The notes: a model not told the origin generated them from the sequence alone. A stretch of 64,000 nt of DNA from Thermosipho atlanticus DSM 15807 (GCF_900129985.1 NZ_FQXN01000001.1:248001-312000), one strand, 5' to 3'; shown: positions 3,193 to 56,455, numbered from the stretch's first letter. Numbers and translations: made by a program.

Positions 3193-5542
3193 AAAACTAG
3201 AAAAAAAAGCTTCAAGATTTAATGAAAAAGAAATTAATATTCCAGATATATTACCGGCAATAGCTATGAGAAGTAATGTTGTTGTTTTTCCAAATACTGT
3301 GATGCCATTTTATGTGGGCAGAGAAAAATCTTTGTATGCTTTGGAAGAATCAATGGAAAATTATGATCAACTGTTATTCGTTGTTAATCAAAAAGATCCT
3401 TCTATTGAAGAACCTACAGAAAAAGATTTGTTCGAAGTGGGAACTGTTGTTAGAGTAATGCAGTTAGGGAAATTACCAGATGGAACTTTTAAAGTTCTTG
3501 TAGAAGGTTTGGTTAGAGCAAAAAGAAGTAAAAAATCTCTTGATAAAAAATATTTTAAGTTTAATATTGAGATATTAAAGAAACGATATCAAAAAACGAA
3601 AAAATTGATAGCTCTAATGAGAATAGTAAGAGATGAGATGCAAAAATATATTCAATTTTCAAGAAAACTTCCAACAGAGGCTTTGATGTTTTTGGAAGAC
3701 ATGGAGGATCCTGATGTATTTGCTGATCTTGCAGCATCGATAAGTCCAGGTACATTGGAAGAAAAACAGTCCTTACTTGAGACATTGCATCCGTATGAAA
3801 GACTTGAAAAAATTTTAACTTTAATAACTAAAGAAACTGAGCTCTTAGAAATTGAACACCAATTAGATCAAAAGGTAAAACAAAGGATTGAAAAATCTCA
3901 AAAGGAGTATTTTTTACGTGAAAAGTTGAGAGTTATACGTGAAGAACTAGGAGGAGAAGAGGATGCAGAAATTAAAGAATTAGAGAAACGAATAGAAGAA
4001 GGCGATTACCCCGAATTCGTAAAGGAAAAAGCGAGATTTGAACTTAACAGGTTAGAAAAGATGTCACCTTATTCTCCAGAAGCTAATGTTATACGAAATT
4101 ATTTGGATTGGATTTTAAATTTACCTTGGAATGAAAAATCTAAAGATAATTTAAATATAAACCATGCGAAAGAACTTTTGGAAAAAGATCATTATGGCCT
4201 TGAAGAACCAAAACAGAGGATTTTAGAATTTTTAGCAATGCGGAATTTGTCGAAAACAATGAAAGCACCGATTATTTGTTTTGTAGGTCCTCCTGGAGTG
4301 GGAAAAACTTCTTTAGGTAAGTCGATATCTAAAGCAATGAATAGACAATTTATGAGAATGTCGTTAGGTGGCCTTAGAGATGAAGCTGAAATTAGGGGGC
4401 ATAGAAGAACGTATGTGGGTGCTTTACCTGGACGAATTATGCAATTAATAAGGAAAGCTAAGGTAAAAAATCCTGTTATATTACTCGATGAGATTGATAA
4501 AATGGGTATTAGTTTTCAAGGAGACCCAGCATCTGCATTACTAGAAGTTTTGGATCCAGAACAGAATAAAGAATTTGTAGATTTGTATATTGAACTTCCT
4601 TTCGATTTATCAGAAGTATTGTTTATTACTACAGCAAATACGTTATACAATATTCCTGAAGCTTTGAAAGATAGAATGGAAATTATAGAAATTCCAAGTT
4701 ACACAAATGTTGAAAAATTTTATATAGCAAGAGATTATATTGTTCCAAGGGCACTTGATGAGTTGAAGACTGAAAAAAATAAAATTTTATTTAGAGAGAA
4801 AGCAATAGAAAGGATTATTTCTGAATACACTATTGAACCTGGAGTAAGAGAACTAGAAAGAAAGATAAGGGCTATTATACGAAAAGCTGCACTTGAAATA
4901 GTGAATGGCAAAAATAGAGTCTATATCACTGAGAAGCGTGTAAAAGAATTTCTAGGAGCCCCAAGAATAAAAGAAGAAGGTATACTTGAAAAACCAACAA
5001 TAGGAGTAGCTACGGGTCTTGCATGGACTCCATATGGTGGAACGACCTTATTTATTGAAAGTATATTATTTCCTGGTAAAGGTTCATTAATTATTACAGG
5101 ACAATTAGGTGAGGTAATGAAAGAATCCGCTAAAATTGCTTTAAGCTTGACAAAAAGAATTTGTGGAGAAAAATTTTCGCAAGTTTTTGAAAAGAGTGAT
5201 ATACATATTCATGTTCCAGAAGGTGCTGTTCCAAAAGATGGGCCGAGTGCAGGAGTTACTATAGTTACTTCTCTAGTTTCAGCAATAAAGAAGGTGCCAA
5301 TAAAAAACAATATTGCAATGACAGGTGAAATTACACTTAGAGGTAGAGTGCTACCAGTTGGAGGTATAAAAGAAAAAGTATTAGCCGCTTACAGAAAAGG
5401 TATTAGGAAAATAATTTTGCCCAAATTAAATGAATACGATATTGAAAAGGTGCCAAAAGAAGTGTTAGATGAAATGGATTTTGTTTTTGTTGAAGACATA
5501 GATGAAGTGTTAAAGGAGGCATTAGTGAGTGAAAATAAATAG
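3164..5542 (+). CDS. lon: ATP-dependent protease Lon
   Basis: A 792-residue LonA-type protease that unfolds and degrades damaged or regulatory proteins in the cytoplasm. It has an N-terminal substrate-binding region (about 1-220), a helical part, an AAA+ module with Walker A GPPGVGKTS (from residue 375) and Walker B VILLDEIDKM, and the C-terminal Ser-Lys protease domain with catalytic Ser695 (DGPSAG) and Lys738 (GGIKEK). The distance of 43 residues between the two is the normal one. AAGGAGG precedes the ATG inside the end of tsaE. Full length and apparently intact. Confidence 0.98.
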   Translation: MPKNSKAKFEKLEKKASRFNEKEINIPDILPAIAMRSNVVVFPNTVMPFYVGREKSLYALEESMENYDQLLFVVNQKDPSIEEPTEKDLFEVGTVVRVMQLGKLPDGTFKVLVEGLVRAKRSKKSLDKKYFKFNIEILKKRYQKTKKLIALMRIVRDEMQKYIQFSRKLPTEALMFLEDMEDPDVFADLAASISPGTLEEKQSLLETLHPYERLEKILTLITKETELLEIEHQLDQKVKQRIEKSQKEYFLREKLRVIREELGGEEDAEIKELEKRIEEGDYPEFVKEKARFELNRLEKMSPYSPEANVIRNYLDWILNLPWNEKSKDNLNINHAKELLEKDHYGLEEPKQRILEFLAMRNLSKTMKAPIICFVGPPGVGKTSLGKSISKAMNRQFMRMSLGGLRDEAEIRGHRRTYVGALPGRIMQLIRKAKVKNPVILLDEIDKMGISFQGDPASALLEVLDPEQNKEFVDLYIELPFDLSEVLFITTANTLYNIPEALKDRMEIIEIPSYTNVEKFYIARDYIVPRALDELKTEKNKILFREKAIERIISEYTIEPGVRELERKIRAIIRKAALEIVNGKNRVYITEKRVKEFLGAPRIKEEGILEKPTIGVATGLAWTPYGGTTLFIESILFPGKGSLIITGQLGEVMKESAKIALSLTKRICGEKFSQVFEKSDIHIHVPEGAVPKDGPSAGVTIVTSLVSAIKKVPIKNNIAMTGEITLRGRVLPVGGIKEKVLAAYRKGIRKIILPKLNEYDIEKVPKEVLDEMDFVFVEDIDEVLKEALVSENK

Positions 5543-51336: not shown

Positions 51337-51627
51337 ATGTTTATTATTGGGAATTTTTTAATAGGTTTGGGTGTTGCATTTAGAATTTTGTTTAATATTG
51401 AAACAGCAATAATTGTTATTTCGGCCATTTTAAGTTGGATCCCTGAAGCTAGGACTTTGTATTATTATTTACAATCTCTTGCCGATATTGTAGAAAGACC
51501 TATAAGACGTATTATTCCAAGAATTGGTCCCGTAGATGTCTCACCGATTATTGCAATAGTTTTGTTGGTATTTTTAGATAGGTTTTTAATTCAAAGTATA
51601 ATAGATCTGGGGTATTATCTAAAATGA
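51337..51627 (+). CDS. YggT family membrane protein
   Basis: A 97-residue membrane protein of the YggT family (linked to division-plane or osmotic functions in other bacteria). Two hydrophobic regions (about 1-35 and 62-90) flank SWIPEARTLYYYLQSLADIVERPIRR-type family residues, here with ADIVERPIRRIIPRIGPVD and SPIIAIVLL. The open frame extends upstream to 51289 inside yggS; the ATG at 51337 follows AGGGGG and fits the family. YggS-YggT adjacency is widespread. Confidence 0.88.
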   Translation: MFIIGNFLIGLGVAFRILFNIETAIIVISAILSWIPEARTLYYYLQSLADIVERPIRRIIPRIGPVDVSPIIAIVLLVFLDRFLIQSIIDLGYYLK

Positions 51628-52394
51628 AAGTATTTGGCATTTTTTATAAACCTGGATTAAAAAGTATCGTAGATGAATTTGTGCAAAAATTAAAAAAGAA
51701 AAATGCACATATTGTTTTTTTGACATCTAATGAAAAAGAAATTGAAGATCATACAGATCTAACTTTAGTTATTGGTGGAGATGGAACAGTACTAAAAGCT
51801 GCAAAATATGTTTCTTCACCAATAATAGGTTTTAAGGGTGGAAGATTAGGGTTTCTTTCAAGTTATACAATAGATGAATTTGATAAATTCCTGGAACATT
51901 TAGAAAGTAACAGTTTTTATGAAGATAAAAGGCAATTTTTTGAAGTTTTAGAATTAAATAGTCTTTATTTGAATGATATAGTTGCTATAAGAGAACCACA
52001 TCAAAAAATGTTAGATATCAATGTGAAATTTAAAGATGGTTCATTTTATTTTCATGCGGACGGAATAATTATCAGTACACCAACAGGTTCTACAGCATAT
52101 TCTCTATCTCTTGGTGGTCCGATTCTCTTACCAAATGTTAAAGCGTATGTCTTAACGCCTATAGCCCCACAATTTCTTGCTTCACGGAGTGTTATTTTAC
52201 CAGATGATGAAAAGATAAGCGTTGAAACAAGTTTTCCTTCGCATCTTATTGTTGATGGGCATGATTTTGGTAAATTTAACAAATTTTCGGTTAGAAAATC
52301 TGAGAAAAGTATTACTATTCTTAGACCTCTTGATTATGATTTTTCGAAATCAATAAAAGAAAAAATGGGATATGGGAAAAATTACTTTAAGTAG
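51624..52394 (+). CDS. nadK: NAD kinase
   Basis: A 256-residue ATP-NAD kinase producing NADP. Motifs: LVIGGDGTVLKAAK (GGDGT site), GFKGGRLGFLSSY, the NAD-binding loop with DGIIISTPTGSTAYSLSLGGPI and LTPIAPQFLASR. The ATG overlaps the yggT stop (ATGA). Short, as in Thermotoga homologues. PhoU follows after 9 bases. Confidence 0.96.
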   Translation: MKVFGIFYKPGLKSIVDEFVQKLKKKNAHIVFLTSNEKEIEDHTDLTLVIGGDGTVLKAAKYVSSPIIGFKGGRLGFLSSYTIDEFDKFLEHLESNSFYEDKRQFFEVLELNSLYLNDIVAIREPHQKMLDINVKFKDGSFYFHADGIIISTPTGSTAYSLSLGGPILLPNVKAYVLTPIAPQFLASRSVILPDDEKISVETSFPSHLIVDGHDFGKFNKFSVRKSEKSITILRPLDYDFSKSIKEKMGYGKNYFK

Positions 52395-52403
52395 GGTGAT
52401 TAT

Positions 52404-53108
52404 ATGGATTGGATTTTAAAAGAAAGTATTGAAGAGTTAAAGAGAATGGTTTTAAAAGAGGGGTGGCTTGCAGAGGCTTTATTTAATCAAGCTTTAAATG
52501 CTTTAAAAGAAAGGGATGAAAGGTCCGCCCGTGTAGTACTCGAAAGAAAGAATGAGATAAAAATTCTTGATATGAAAGTAAGAGAAAAAGCATTAATAAT
52601 TTTGGCTACCATGATGCCTATGTCTATAGATCTGAGGATAGTAACTGGAAGTTTTGTAATTTCAAGTTATTTTGAAATGATTTCTGAGAAATCTTTGGAA
52701 ATTGCAGAAAAAACACTTGAATTGATCAAAGAGCCTCAATTAAAGCCTTTAATTACTATCCCAGAAATGGCTAAATACGTTTTAATTATGTTAAGGGAAA
52801 GTATGAGAATGTTTGCTGATCAAAATATCTATGGAGCAGAAAGTGTTTGTGAAAGAGATAATGAGATAGACAATTACTTAGAAGATGTAAGGAATGAGTT
52901 AATGGTATATATGATGGAAAATTCCAAATATGTAAAAAGAGCCATACTCTTACTTGAAATTGCCCAAAATATTGAAGAAATAGCTGATCAAGCTACTAGA
53001 ATAGTTGAAGTGACTTCCTATATTATTACAGGTAAACAATATAGATGTTTTGAAGATAAACTTTATACTATTGATACTTTGGAAAATAATAAGGAGGAAA
53101 ATTCTTGA
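52404..53108 (+). CDS. phoU: PhoU-like protein
   Basis: A 234-residue all-helical protein with two three-helix PhoU repeats (about 10-95 and 110-205); conserved patterns are the ERDNEIDNYLEDVRNELM segment and IEEIADQATRIVE near the end. PhoU binds metal clusters and represses phosphate-starvation signalling with PstB/PhoR. No pst genes are in the window; the orphan OmpR-type regulator at 25669 could be a PhoB, but nothing links them directly. AGGGTGA precedes the ATG. Its stop overlaps the next start. Confidence 0.88.
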   Translation: MDWILKESIEELKRMVLKEGWLAEALFNQALNALKERDERSARVVLERKNEIKILDMKVREKALIILATMMPMSIDLRIVTGSFVISSYFEMISEKSLEIAEKTLELIKEPQLKPLITIPEMAKYVLIMLRESMRMFADQNIYGAESVCERDNEIDNYLEDVRNELMVYMMENSKYVKRAILLLEIAQNIEEIADQATRIVEVTSYIITGKQYRCFEDKLYTIDTLENNKEENS

Positions 53109-56100
53109 AAGTTTTAACAAGATATATCTTAAAACTTTCTATAGGCCCTTTTTTAATGGGCATTTTTGGTTTTGTAGTTTTTGCAAGTGTTGAGCTTTTG
53201 TATCAATTATCGGATATAATTGTAAGACATAGAGTTAGTATTTTAAAATTATTTGAGCTGATTTATTATAATCTTCCTTATTTTGTTTCACTAGGTATTC
53301 CTGTTGGTGTTTTGTTTGCAATTTTTTGGGTGTTATCTCAATTATATAATTCAAAAGAGATAACAGCACTTCTTGTCCATGGAATACCTTCCAAAAGGTT
53401 AGTTATACCATTTTTCGTGTTATCACTTGTATTTGGCTTTTTTGTTTTTTATTTAAATGATCAAATTGTTCCAAATTTTAATCAGAAAGCTGTGAAAATA
53501 ATTTCAAAGTATGTATACAAAAAGCCTGAGCTTAACATACGAGAAAATATTTTAACTAAGATTGACGATAAACAATATTTTTTTGTAAAAAAGTATGATC
53601 AAGAAAGTGGGATATTGTATGATGTTGTTTTGTTTCAAAACATAAGTAATGAAGAGAGAATAATTACATCAGAAAAAGTAATTAAAGAAGGTTCATCTTG
53701 GTACTTGATAAACGGTCGAATGTATGTAACTGGTGATTCTGGATTTTTAAAACTTGATATGAAATTTTCAAAAATTAAACTTGACTTAAAAGAAGATTTA
53801 GAAAGTTTAATGAGGTTCGGAAAGTCTCCGAGAGATATGACAGGTGGAGAGTTAAAACAAAAAATAAATACATTTGTAAAATTAGGTATAGATCCCTCAC
53901 CTTGGATTGTGGAATTACAATCCAGATATGCAAATTCTGTAGGACCATTTATAATTGCTTTACTTGGTGTGCCTCTTTCACTTTTATTTGGTTTAAAGAG
54001 CAAATCATGGAGTGTAATTTTGACTTTTGGTATAGTTGTCTTATATCAAGGTGCAGGTGCTTGGCTTGCAGCTATGGGGAAAGAAAATTTACTTAATCCG
54101 TATCTTGCATCTTGGTTACCGAATATTGCGTTTGGGATATTTGGAACAATTTTGTTTATTCTACTTGATACCCCTTTTGCATATAAAGTTAGAGAGGTTC
54201 TATCTAGATTTTTTATATTTTTACTTTTTTCAACTGTTATATTAATTAATACTCATGTTTACGCAAATGAAATAACTTTAGATGCTTCTCAAGTGGAGTA
54301 TTTTGGAGAAACGATATTTGCCAGTGGCAATGTCTATATACAATGGGATGACAATATAATTATTTCAGATTATGCAACGTTTACTCTTGAAAATTCACAA
54401 GTGAAGTCGTTGGAATCTGAAGGAAATGTGAAATATGAATACCAAGGGAATGTTTACTATGCACGTTATTTAAAATATTTTTTTGATGAAGATAAAGCAT
54501 ATGTTGTAAACGTTAAGGGAGTTATGAATTATAAATATGGAAAAAATGATGTGAATTTATATTTTGGTGCGGAGAAGGTAACTACCTATTCCGCAAGTTC
54601 TTTACTTAACGAAGCTTATATTACAACATGTGACCTTGAGCATCCTCATTACAAACTTGAATCTTTGAATGTTTATGTGTACGAAGGAAAATATATCATT
54701 GCTGAAAATACCCTACTTTTTATACTAGACTTCCCATTTTTCCCATATCCAATTTATTTTACTAGTGTTAATGAAAAAGAGAAATCACCATTTTCATTTT
54801 CATTTTCGTGGTCACCGTTTGACGGTTTTATGACACAACAAAATTATATTTCAAATGTTGGAGACTTTACTTTAAATACCTCGATTGAGACATCAAAATA
54901 TGGTTCAGTATTTAGTTTGTTAATGAATAACAACAAGACTGGTGATAAATTTGTTCTTGATTTTCGGAAAAATTTACTTGAATTGAATACTAAAAATTTT
55001 ATTTACAAAACTAATTGGGATAGTGCAACTTCATTTTTGAAAGTTTTATACGAACCATTTTATTTTGAGGAAAGTTATTATTCTGAAAGTAATTGGAATA
55101 AAAGAATAGGTTTTAAATATATGTTTAATAAACCAATAAAAAGTAATTTTAATTTTTATATTGACTATAATGGAAGTAGATCGTTGATATATAACTCTTT
55201 TAATATGAAAAATTTTAGTGTTGGAATTAATAATTTCATAAAGTTTAAGTTGATAAATTTAGATTCAAAGGTTTATATAACAAAAGAAGGTTTTTTCTTG
55301 GATGATTCGACTTGGTTAGTAAATGAAAATATAAATTATAAATTTAGTTTGTATAATGAGAAATTTTTCAATACATTAGTAGATGTTTCATATTTGAATA
55401 ATCAATATATAAGTAAAATAAATCATAAATTTGTTTTACCATATACGTATAAATATGGTTTTTTCCAGTTTGGAACAGGTTATGAATTTGGTTTAAAAAT
55501 ATATAATGCTTTAACGGATAAATACTACTTTCAAATAGGTATGTATGATAAATATACTTTGTCTGGAAAGTTTGAATTGAGTCCTTTAACTTTCAAAACT
55601 GAATATATTTATAGGAAAAATTTTCAAGATGAATCAACGTCTACCAATACTTCAAAATTAAATTTTACCTTATTTTTAGACACAAATTATATGAATATAA
55701 GTGTTGCAAAAGGTTGGGATTTTCTTTTAAATGCCCCGTTGAATGATAAATTAAAATTCAATCTTCATTTTTCGTTGAGCGGTTATGAATTTAATTTGAA
55801 CATGTATTCTGAGTATGATAACGTAAATAAATTACTACAACCTTCTAATATATCTTTTAGCATTTCAAATTCAAAATTAGCTTTGGAATACAAATCTAGC
55901 TTTATTTACTCTCCAGGAGATATTTATTTCGTCAAAGAAATCAATCATAATTTTAGATTTCAAAAATTCAAAGGTTCAATTACGCAATCTATAGAAGAGG
56001 ACTATATAAAAAGAGCTTATTTTAATGGTTCGTTTATTTTTGGTGGATTTAGTAATTTTCTAAGTTTAAATTATTATAAAAGTTCAAAATATGAACAAGC

Positions 56101-56455
56101 TAATTTTAGTTTTAATTATAAACTGAAAGTTGAAAAAAATTCATACAGTTTCTTATACAGTAGAGATGAAAAGTTAAAATTTGGGTTAGATTTGGTTTCG
56201 TTCGATCCTTCCATAAAGTTTGAAACCACGTTTGATTTAGTTTCTAAGAAATTTTCTTCTATTGGTTTTTCATTTTCAAAAAAATTACATCATTGGGTTT
56301 TAAATTTTAACAGTAATTTTAATTTTAATGGAGATGGAAGGCTTGATTTTAACGATATAACGGAACTTTCTGTTCAGTTTTATGTCATAGAATTTAGTGA
56401 GAAATTTTTCGGATGGGATTTCAAAAAGAATCAACCGAGTATTGGACTTTTCTAA
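53105..56455 (+). CDS. Fusion of an LptF/LptG-type permease with an OstA/LptD-like domain
   Basis: A 1116-residue fusion. Residues 1-355 are a YjgP/YjgQ (LptF/G) permease: six helices around a periplasmic beta-jellyroll (about 130-235), with YILKLSIGPFLMGIFGF and SKEITALLVHGI near the start. Residues 362-387 form a helix ending VYA-NE, much like a signal peptide with cleavage after Ala387. Residues 388-500 match the OstA/LptA fold (ITLDASQVEYFG, ASGNVYIQW, ISDYATF, GNVKYEY). About 510-1116 are repeated amphipathic beta strands like the LptD barrel. The start is TTG behind AAGGAGG, overlapping the phoU stop. LptB and LptC partners are not in the window; Thermotogota are not known to make ordinary LPS, so the cargo is unknown. 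Confidence 0.88.
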   Translation: MKVLTRYILKLSIGPFLMGIFGFVVFASVELLYQLSDIIVRHRVSILKLFELIYYNLPYFVSLGIPVGVLFAIFWVLSQLYNSKEITALLVHGIPSKRLVIPFFVLSLVFGFFVFYLNDQIVPNFNQKAVKIISKYVYKKPELNIRENILTKIDDKQYFFVKKYDQESGILYDVVLFQNISNEERIITSEKVIKEGSSWYLINGRMYVTGDSGFLKLDMKFSKIKLDLKEDLESLMRFGKSPRDMTGGELKQKINTFVKLGIDPSPWIVELQSRYANSVGPFIIALLGVPLSLLFGLKSKSWSVILTFGIVVLYQGAGAWLAAMGKENLLNPYLASWLPNIAFGIFGTILFILLDTPFAYKVREVLSRFFIFLLFSTVILINTHVYANEITLDASQVEYFGETIFASGNVYIQWDDNIIISDYATFTLENSQVKSLESEGNVKYEYQGNVYYARYLKYFFDEDKAYVVNVKGVMNYKYGKNDVNLYFGAEKVTTYSASSLLNEAYITTCDLEHPHYKLESLNVYVYEGKYIIAENTLLFILDFPFFPYPIYFTSVNEKEKSPFSFSFSWSPFDGFMTQQNYISNVGDFTLNTSIETSKYGSVFSLLMNNNKTGDKFVLDFRKNLLELNTKNFIYKTNWDSATSFLKVLYEPFYFEESYYSESNWNKRIGFKYMFNKPIKSNFNFYIDYNGSRSLIYNSFNMKNFSVGINNFIKFKLINLDSKVYITKEGFFLDDSTWLVNENINYKFSLYNEKFFNTLVDVSYLNNQYISKINHKFVLPYTYKYGFFQFGTGYEFGLKIYNALTDKYYFQIGMYDKYTLSGKFELSPLTFKTEYIYRKNFQDESTSTNTSKLNFTLFLDTNYMNISVAKGWDFLLNAPLNDKLKFNLHFSLSGYEFNLNMYSEYDNVNKLLQPSNISFSISNSKLALEYKSSFIYSPGDIYFVKEINHNFRFQKFKGSITQSIEEDYIKRAYFNGSFIFGGFSNFLSLNYYKSSKYEQANFSFNYKLKVEKNSYSFLYSRDEKLKFGLDLVSFDPSIKFETTFDLVSKKFSSIGFSFSKKLHHWVLNFNSNFNFNGDGRLDFNDITELSVQFYVIEFSEKFFGWDFKKNQPSIGLF

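Follow-up and report, generated by a model that had tools for sequence, protein, structure and literature searches.

The locus described here raises the question of whether one gene can supply both the inner-membrane permease and the outer-membrane exit pore of an Lpt system, and whether its product would then act as one chain or as two. The gene lies at 53105..56455 on the plus strand of a 64,000-nucleotide stretch of a Thermotogota genome (G000:C1:248001-312000, hereafter the window), whose closest named relatives are Thermosipho. It is a single ORF with a TTG start, located just 3′ of the strong Shine-Dalgarno sequence AAGGAGG (53091..53097, plus strand), and its 1116 codons specify a protein of predicted 130.4 kDa; the original prediction had placed a frame of 1116 residues at exactly this position. 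Two conserved neighbours precede it on the same strand, an NAD kinase gene (51624..52394) and a gene for a PhoU-domain protein (52404..53108), the 3′ end of which overlaps the start of the fused gene. This gene order is widely conserved: within the limited flanks available, the two neighbours were seen in 38 and 41 of 51 loci.

Composition of the fused protein

The permease part comprises residues 1-356. Its LptF/LptG domain (PF03739) extends over residues 6-351 (53120..54157, plus strand) with an E value of 6.3e-74 and 249.6 bits against a cut-off of 27.9, and is the only domain that Pfam detects in the window protein searched alone. The domain contains six hydrophobic transmembrane (TM) segments, with the gap at 123-275 corresponding to the periplasmic domain between TM3 and TM4. 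Neither of the two equivalog models is reached (TIGR04407, 130.8 bits with a cut-off of 230; TIGR04408, 122.7 bits with a cut-off of 240), and the permease thus fits neither family at the equivalog level.

The C-terminal part, residues 388-1116, escapes Pfam when the window sequence is searched alone: the OstA model PF03968 gives an E value of 0.016, and exceeds its cut-off in 16 of 44 relatives. These relatives, 44 homologous C-terminal parts from across Thermotogota with 12-59% identity to the window, were aligned (alignment A3), and the resulting profile was compared with all PDB sequences. LptD ranked first (7omm, E 9.1e-7; 8h1r, E 1.3e-6), followed by LptA entries, and the match to LptD spans the OstA domain as well as the segment with YTTC...PHY and P-x-FY-x-P-x-YF. 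Using hhalign, the A3 profile matched E. coli LptD with a probability of 92% at an identity of ~12%, pairing ITTC with SFTSC and PFFPYPIYF with PVPIFYSPYL of the E. coli protein.

Based on these comparisons, three regions can be assigned on the plus strand. The OstA domain, equivalent to the N-terminal domain of LptD and matched by LptA and LptD entries of the PDB, begins at residue 388, the predicted start of mature LptD (54266..54628). It is followed by the LptD motif YITTC..PHY...PFFPYPIYF at residues 505-554 (54617..54766), identified from the alignment and hhalign, and by a predicted beta-barrel region at residues 563-1116 (54791..56452). The latter ends with F, in agreement with a C-terminal F or M in all complete members except L081, which ends with L. 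In one family (f9; L069-L074 and L100) the LptD parts reach 1040-1080 aa vs about 680-870 aa elsewhere, the ~300 extra residues being located in the barrel region.

The Cys of the TTC motif, Cys509 in the window protein, is invariant in the aligned relatives. Most members carry a second, LHCW-type Cys near the C terminus, often as their sole other Cys, and its pairing with the TTC Cys would be as expected for the inter-domain disulfide of LptD. This C-terminal partner is absent from the window protein, which has LHHW at the corresponding position (residues 1061-1064; 56285..56296, plus strand). The same loss is found in Thermosipho and one sister genus (L002, L003, L057, L065, L066), with LHHW in the rows read; the TTC Cys is kept there, and would thus lack its usual disulfide partner.

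Structure prediction, suggested as a check in the original prediction, was performed with AF2 for the full chain and for residues 388-1116. For the C-terminal region, in which LptD forms a large barrel of about 26 strands, both models show a beta-strand meander at a pLDDT of just 45-47, a low confidence due to an alignment of only three sequences (the window and two Thermosipho loci), so that the identification as LptD is based on the profile evidence. When the low-confidence model was compared with the PDB by Foldseek, the top 24 matches were all LptD (probability 1.0, TM ~0.17). Taken together, profile, hhalign, Foldseek, motifs and Cys pattern indicate, at the level of sequence comparison, that residues 388-1116 are an LptD homologue with a predicted barrel. 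The union of permease and LptD part in one frame is confirmed; the OstA fold and barrel that had been proposed are the normal make-up of LptD, and the LptA-like protein is encoded separately elsewhere in the genome.

Distribution of the fusion and naturally split genomes

A search for this architecture across Thermotogota, also put forward originally, detected PF03739 in 100 of 103 genomes and a single frame of at least 900 aa in 89 of them. About 50 of the long ORFs were read, and all carry the same LptD part; ORFs extracted in full are mostly 1071-1466 aa long. Because 89 genomes, including the one studied here, have the long frame and the ORFs read contain the LptD part, we reject an assembly, frameshift or sequencing artefact as the origin of the fusion. 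Six shorter ORFs stop at contig edges (G001, G022, G031, G034, G062, G097). Broken frames were observed inside the permease or the barrel, never at the joint, in G041, G044 and G093, where the remainder follows, and a frame shift late in the barrel in G079. The distribution given here is that within Thermotogota; a single scan of genome contigs returned Thermosipho alone.

Only two genomes, G005 and G054, are genuinely unfused; both are incomplete and they belong to different families. G005, whose family also includes G006 and G007 with the fused gene, encodes two adjacent separate permeases, each ending after TM6 (L045 2410-4743), and on another contig an LptD of 849 aa (L109 1363-3912) that begins with MKERRMVIKKFKKNQIFHILILIILLIPLMAFTQ, a typical N-terminal signal peptide. 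In the phylogenetic tree this LptD is sister to those of G006 and G007 with a support of 100/100, and the permeases group with the G006 and G007 permeases on long branches. Since LptD and permeases of G005 group with fused relatives, the split is probably secondary, a fission accompanied by permease duplication that would account for the free LptD and for two LptF/G genes that have diverged. Several OstA repeats occur in a further G005 ORF of 621 aa (G005:C50:26341-27960).

In G054 (L082, G054:C205), the permease ends with a stop (CTGGGATGATACCATG) and an ATG follows 5 nt later in another frame, resulting in two closely coupled genes, both complete, that meet on the minus strand near base 4310. 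The LptD of 848 aa starts MHLRYKSFSPVLFIISLFFIILSGTKVFSA-T (hyphens mark predicted cut sites). In both split genomes, the counterpart of the internal segment lies at the same place and is a normal N-terminal signal peptide whose n-region is basic. LptD thus has its own N-terminal signal peptide in either case, which argues that it works as a free chain in Thermotogota.

The joint and its internal signal-like segment

In LptF/G-type permeases, the C-terminal end after TM6 is cytosolic. The window protein continues past TM6 with the tail LDTPFAYKVREVLSRFF, a seventh hydrophobic segment (TM7) and VYA-NEITLDAS, and the OstA domain follows immediately, its first strand starting only 2-3 residues after TM7. 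Hydrophobicity and aligned rows delimit this signal-peptide-like segment to residues 366-387 (54200..54265, plus strand), in good agreement with the original prediction of a hydrophobic stretch at about 362-387 ending VYA-NE.

In 52 aligned rows, position -1 relative to this site is A, G or S in 88% and T in a further 4%, compared with a mean A/G/S content of 0.12-0.20 per column in the regions flanking the joint. Position -2 is aromatic in 83% of the rows, and position -3 is never charged. The few rows with T, P, Q or C at the aligned -1 position each have a neighbouring candidate, and at least one -3/-1-compatible site is present near the joint in every row. The hydrophobic residues of TM7 are free to vary, and the small residues interchange at the predicted cut site. 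With its basic cytosolic side and conserved -3/-1 site, the joint displays the sequence features of an internal signal. We read the -3/-1 pattern as the signature of signal peptidase I, and TM7 appears to evolve as a cleaved signal peptide would. The genome contains a gene for signal peptidase I, and the separate LptA-like protein begins MKKIVLSFLIFVVLISFS-K, in the same style as the VYA-NE site.

We consider it likely that the gene encodes a polyprotein whose cleavage behind residue 387 yields a permease of 44.3 kDa with seven TM segments and an LptD of 86.1 kDa, which would serve the export of a non-LPS lipid. The cleavage, homodimer, lipid route and cargo that we infer would be connected as follows. 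The permease would be inserted by Sec, with its cytosolic tail (..AYKVREVLSRFF) acting as n-region of the internal signal peptide TM7, and signal peptidase I would cut the periplasmic end of TM7 after VYA387. The permease product would retain the signal segment as TM7; the LptD product would be periplasmic and subsequently be placed in the outer membrane of the toga by the Omp85 (BAM-type) machinery. The permease, being the only one, would have to pair with itself; it presumably forms a homodimer that works with the LptB ATPase and hands the non-LPS lipid to the LptA-like OstA protein, a separate product, from which it would pass to LptD. Partial cutting of the fused chain is possible.

The original prediction had offered a cleaved polyprotein and a continuous trans-envelope bridge as alternatives, and the -3/-1 site, the two splits and the signal peptidase I gene speak for the former. 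In the bridge, an uncut or partly cut chain would run as one molecule from permease through OstA to barrel and conduct lipid where the membranes are close, with TM7 and OstA replacing LptC. Such a role would suit the phylum-wide conservation of one frame, an own genome in which LptC has no match, and the spacing of just 2-3 residues from TM7 to OstA, but a signal anchor has no need of conserved small residues at -3/-1, and the lineages of G005 and G054 use separate chains. Moreover, a permease homodimer would pull two barrels along, and the toga is located ~50 nm from the cytoplasmic membrane, ballooning at the poles (PMC3387000), a gap that far exceeds the reach of an OstA segment of ~120 residues. 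We therefore regard the bridge as improbable.

Two products could also arise without proteolysis, by internal translation initiation or reinitiation, and the separate, tightly coupled genes of G054 demonstrate that coupling is possible in Thermotogota. However, the frame stays open across the joint in 89 genomes, and a conserved internal start is absent there: an ATG, GTG or TTG with a Shine-Dalgarno sequence of at least 5 bases is found near the joint in 3 of 48 rows, vs 26 of 48 for the true starts, and the joint of the window has one TTG only, without Shine-Dalgarno sequence. This makes initiation at the joint very unlikely. The least probable of the explanations is that the C-terminal part represents an unrelated outer-membrane barrel or porin. 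Weak Porin_4 matches of two A3 members, the low confidence of the AF2 model and the ~12% identity to E. coli LptD would be compatible with it, but the profile matches to LptD cover the OstA domain together with the TTC and PxFYxP segment, Foldseek returned LptD throughout its top 24, and the invariant TTC-type Cys, mostly accompanied by the C-terminal LHCW-type Cys, resembles the inter-domain disulfide of LptD.

Partner genes, cargo and relation to other Lpt systems

The genome encodes an LptB that exceeds the cut-off of TIGR04406 with 300 bits, and LptB is present in 98 of the 103 Thermotogota genomes. Its gene lies directly downstream of a gene for an OmpH/Skp-like periplasmic chaperone (L101 6162-7357, G000:C5). 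One further OstA protein, LptA-like and 207 aa long, is encoded by a separate gene, preceded by a gene for a patatin-like phospholipase and by another ORF that has no Pfam match (L102 6508-8640, G000:C1); a link of the phospholipase to lipid turnover is possible. An Omp85 (BAM-type) gene is also present. LptC (PF06835) was not found in this genome, with E values up to 5, so that of the LptB- and LptC-like genes whose location had been suggested as a check, LptB was found and LptC was not.

LpxC is absent from all 103 Thermotogota genomes, which indicates that canonical LPS is not the cargo. For LPS-less diderms with an Lpt system, Thermotoga maritima being named among them, a glycolipid cargo has been argued (PMC10353723). 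By this analogy a glycolipid is the likeliest candidate for the non-LPS cargo. The absence of LpxC agrees with the sheath lipid or glycolipid of the original prediction; the idea of a glycolipid cargo was already contained in PMC10353723.

With the LptB2FGC-LptA-LptDE system of Proteobacteria, the system described here shares a homologous permease (PF03739), LptB at equivalog level, an OstA-domain LptA-like protein and LptD. It differs in that permease and LptD form one ORF, a single permease gene replaces LptF plus LptG, LptC has no match in the genome studied, and the missing LpxC leaves no canonical LPS as cargo. A precedent for the predicted processing is FbcH, the cytochrome b/c1 polyprotein of Bradyrhizobium, a polytopic membrane protein from which signal peptidase frees a second, exported protein at an internal signal peptide. 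There, the proteins are unrelated to those described here and both products remain in one inner-membrane complex, whereas the second product of the Thermotogota fusion would go to the outer membrane.

Borrelia burgdorferi, too, is an LPS-less diderm with an Lpt system and a proposed glycolipid cargo (PMC10353723), but its Lpt proteins are separate, and that paper uses neither the word “fusion” nor “fused”. The diderm Firmicutes (Negativicutes, Halanaerobiales) likewise have one LptF/G homologue and OstA-domain proteins (PMC5007114); in contrast to Thermotogota, they make LPS, and neither an LptD nor a fusion was reported for them. Putker 2015, as cited in PMC10353723, had already listed T. maritima orthologues of Lpt proteins. 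Of the outer-membrane genes examined in a survey, Thermotogae were said to lack almost all but bamA (PMC8871954), which our results contradict for LptB, LptF/G, LptD and the LptA-like protein. We found no description of the fusion or its internal signal in the largely open-access literature searched.

Essentially all Thermotogota keep the Lpt core of LptB, LptF/G, LptA-like protein and LptD despite the absence of LpxC. One precursor for an inner-membrane transporter and an outer-membrane exit pore would be an unusual way of matching the amounts of two partners across two membranes. Through the cargo of this exporter, the composition of the toga membrane, a long-standing question, becomes testable.
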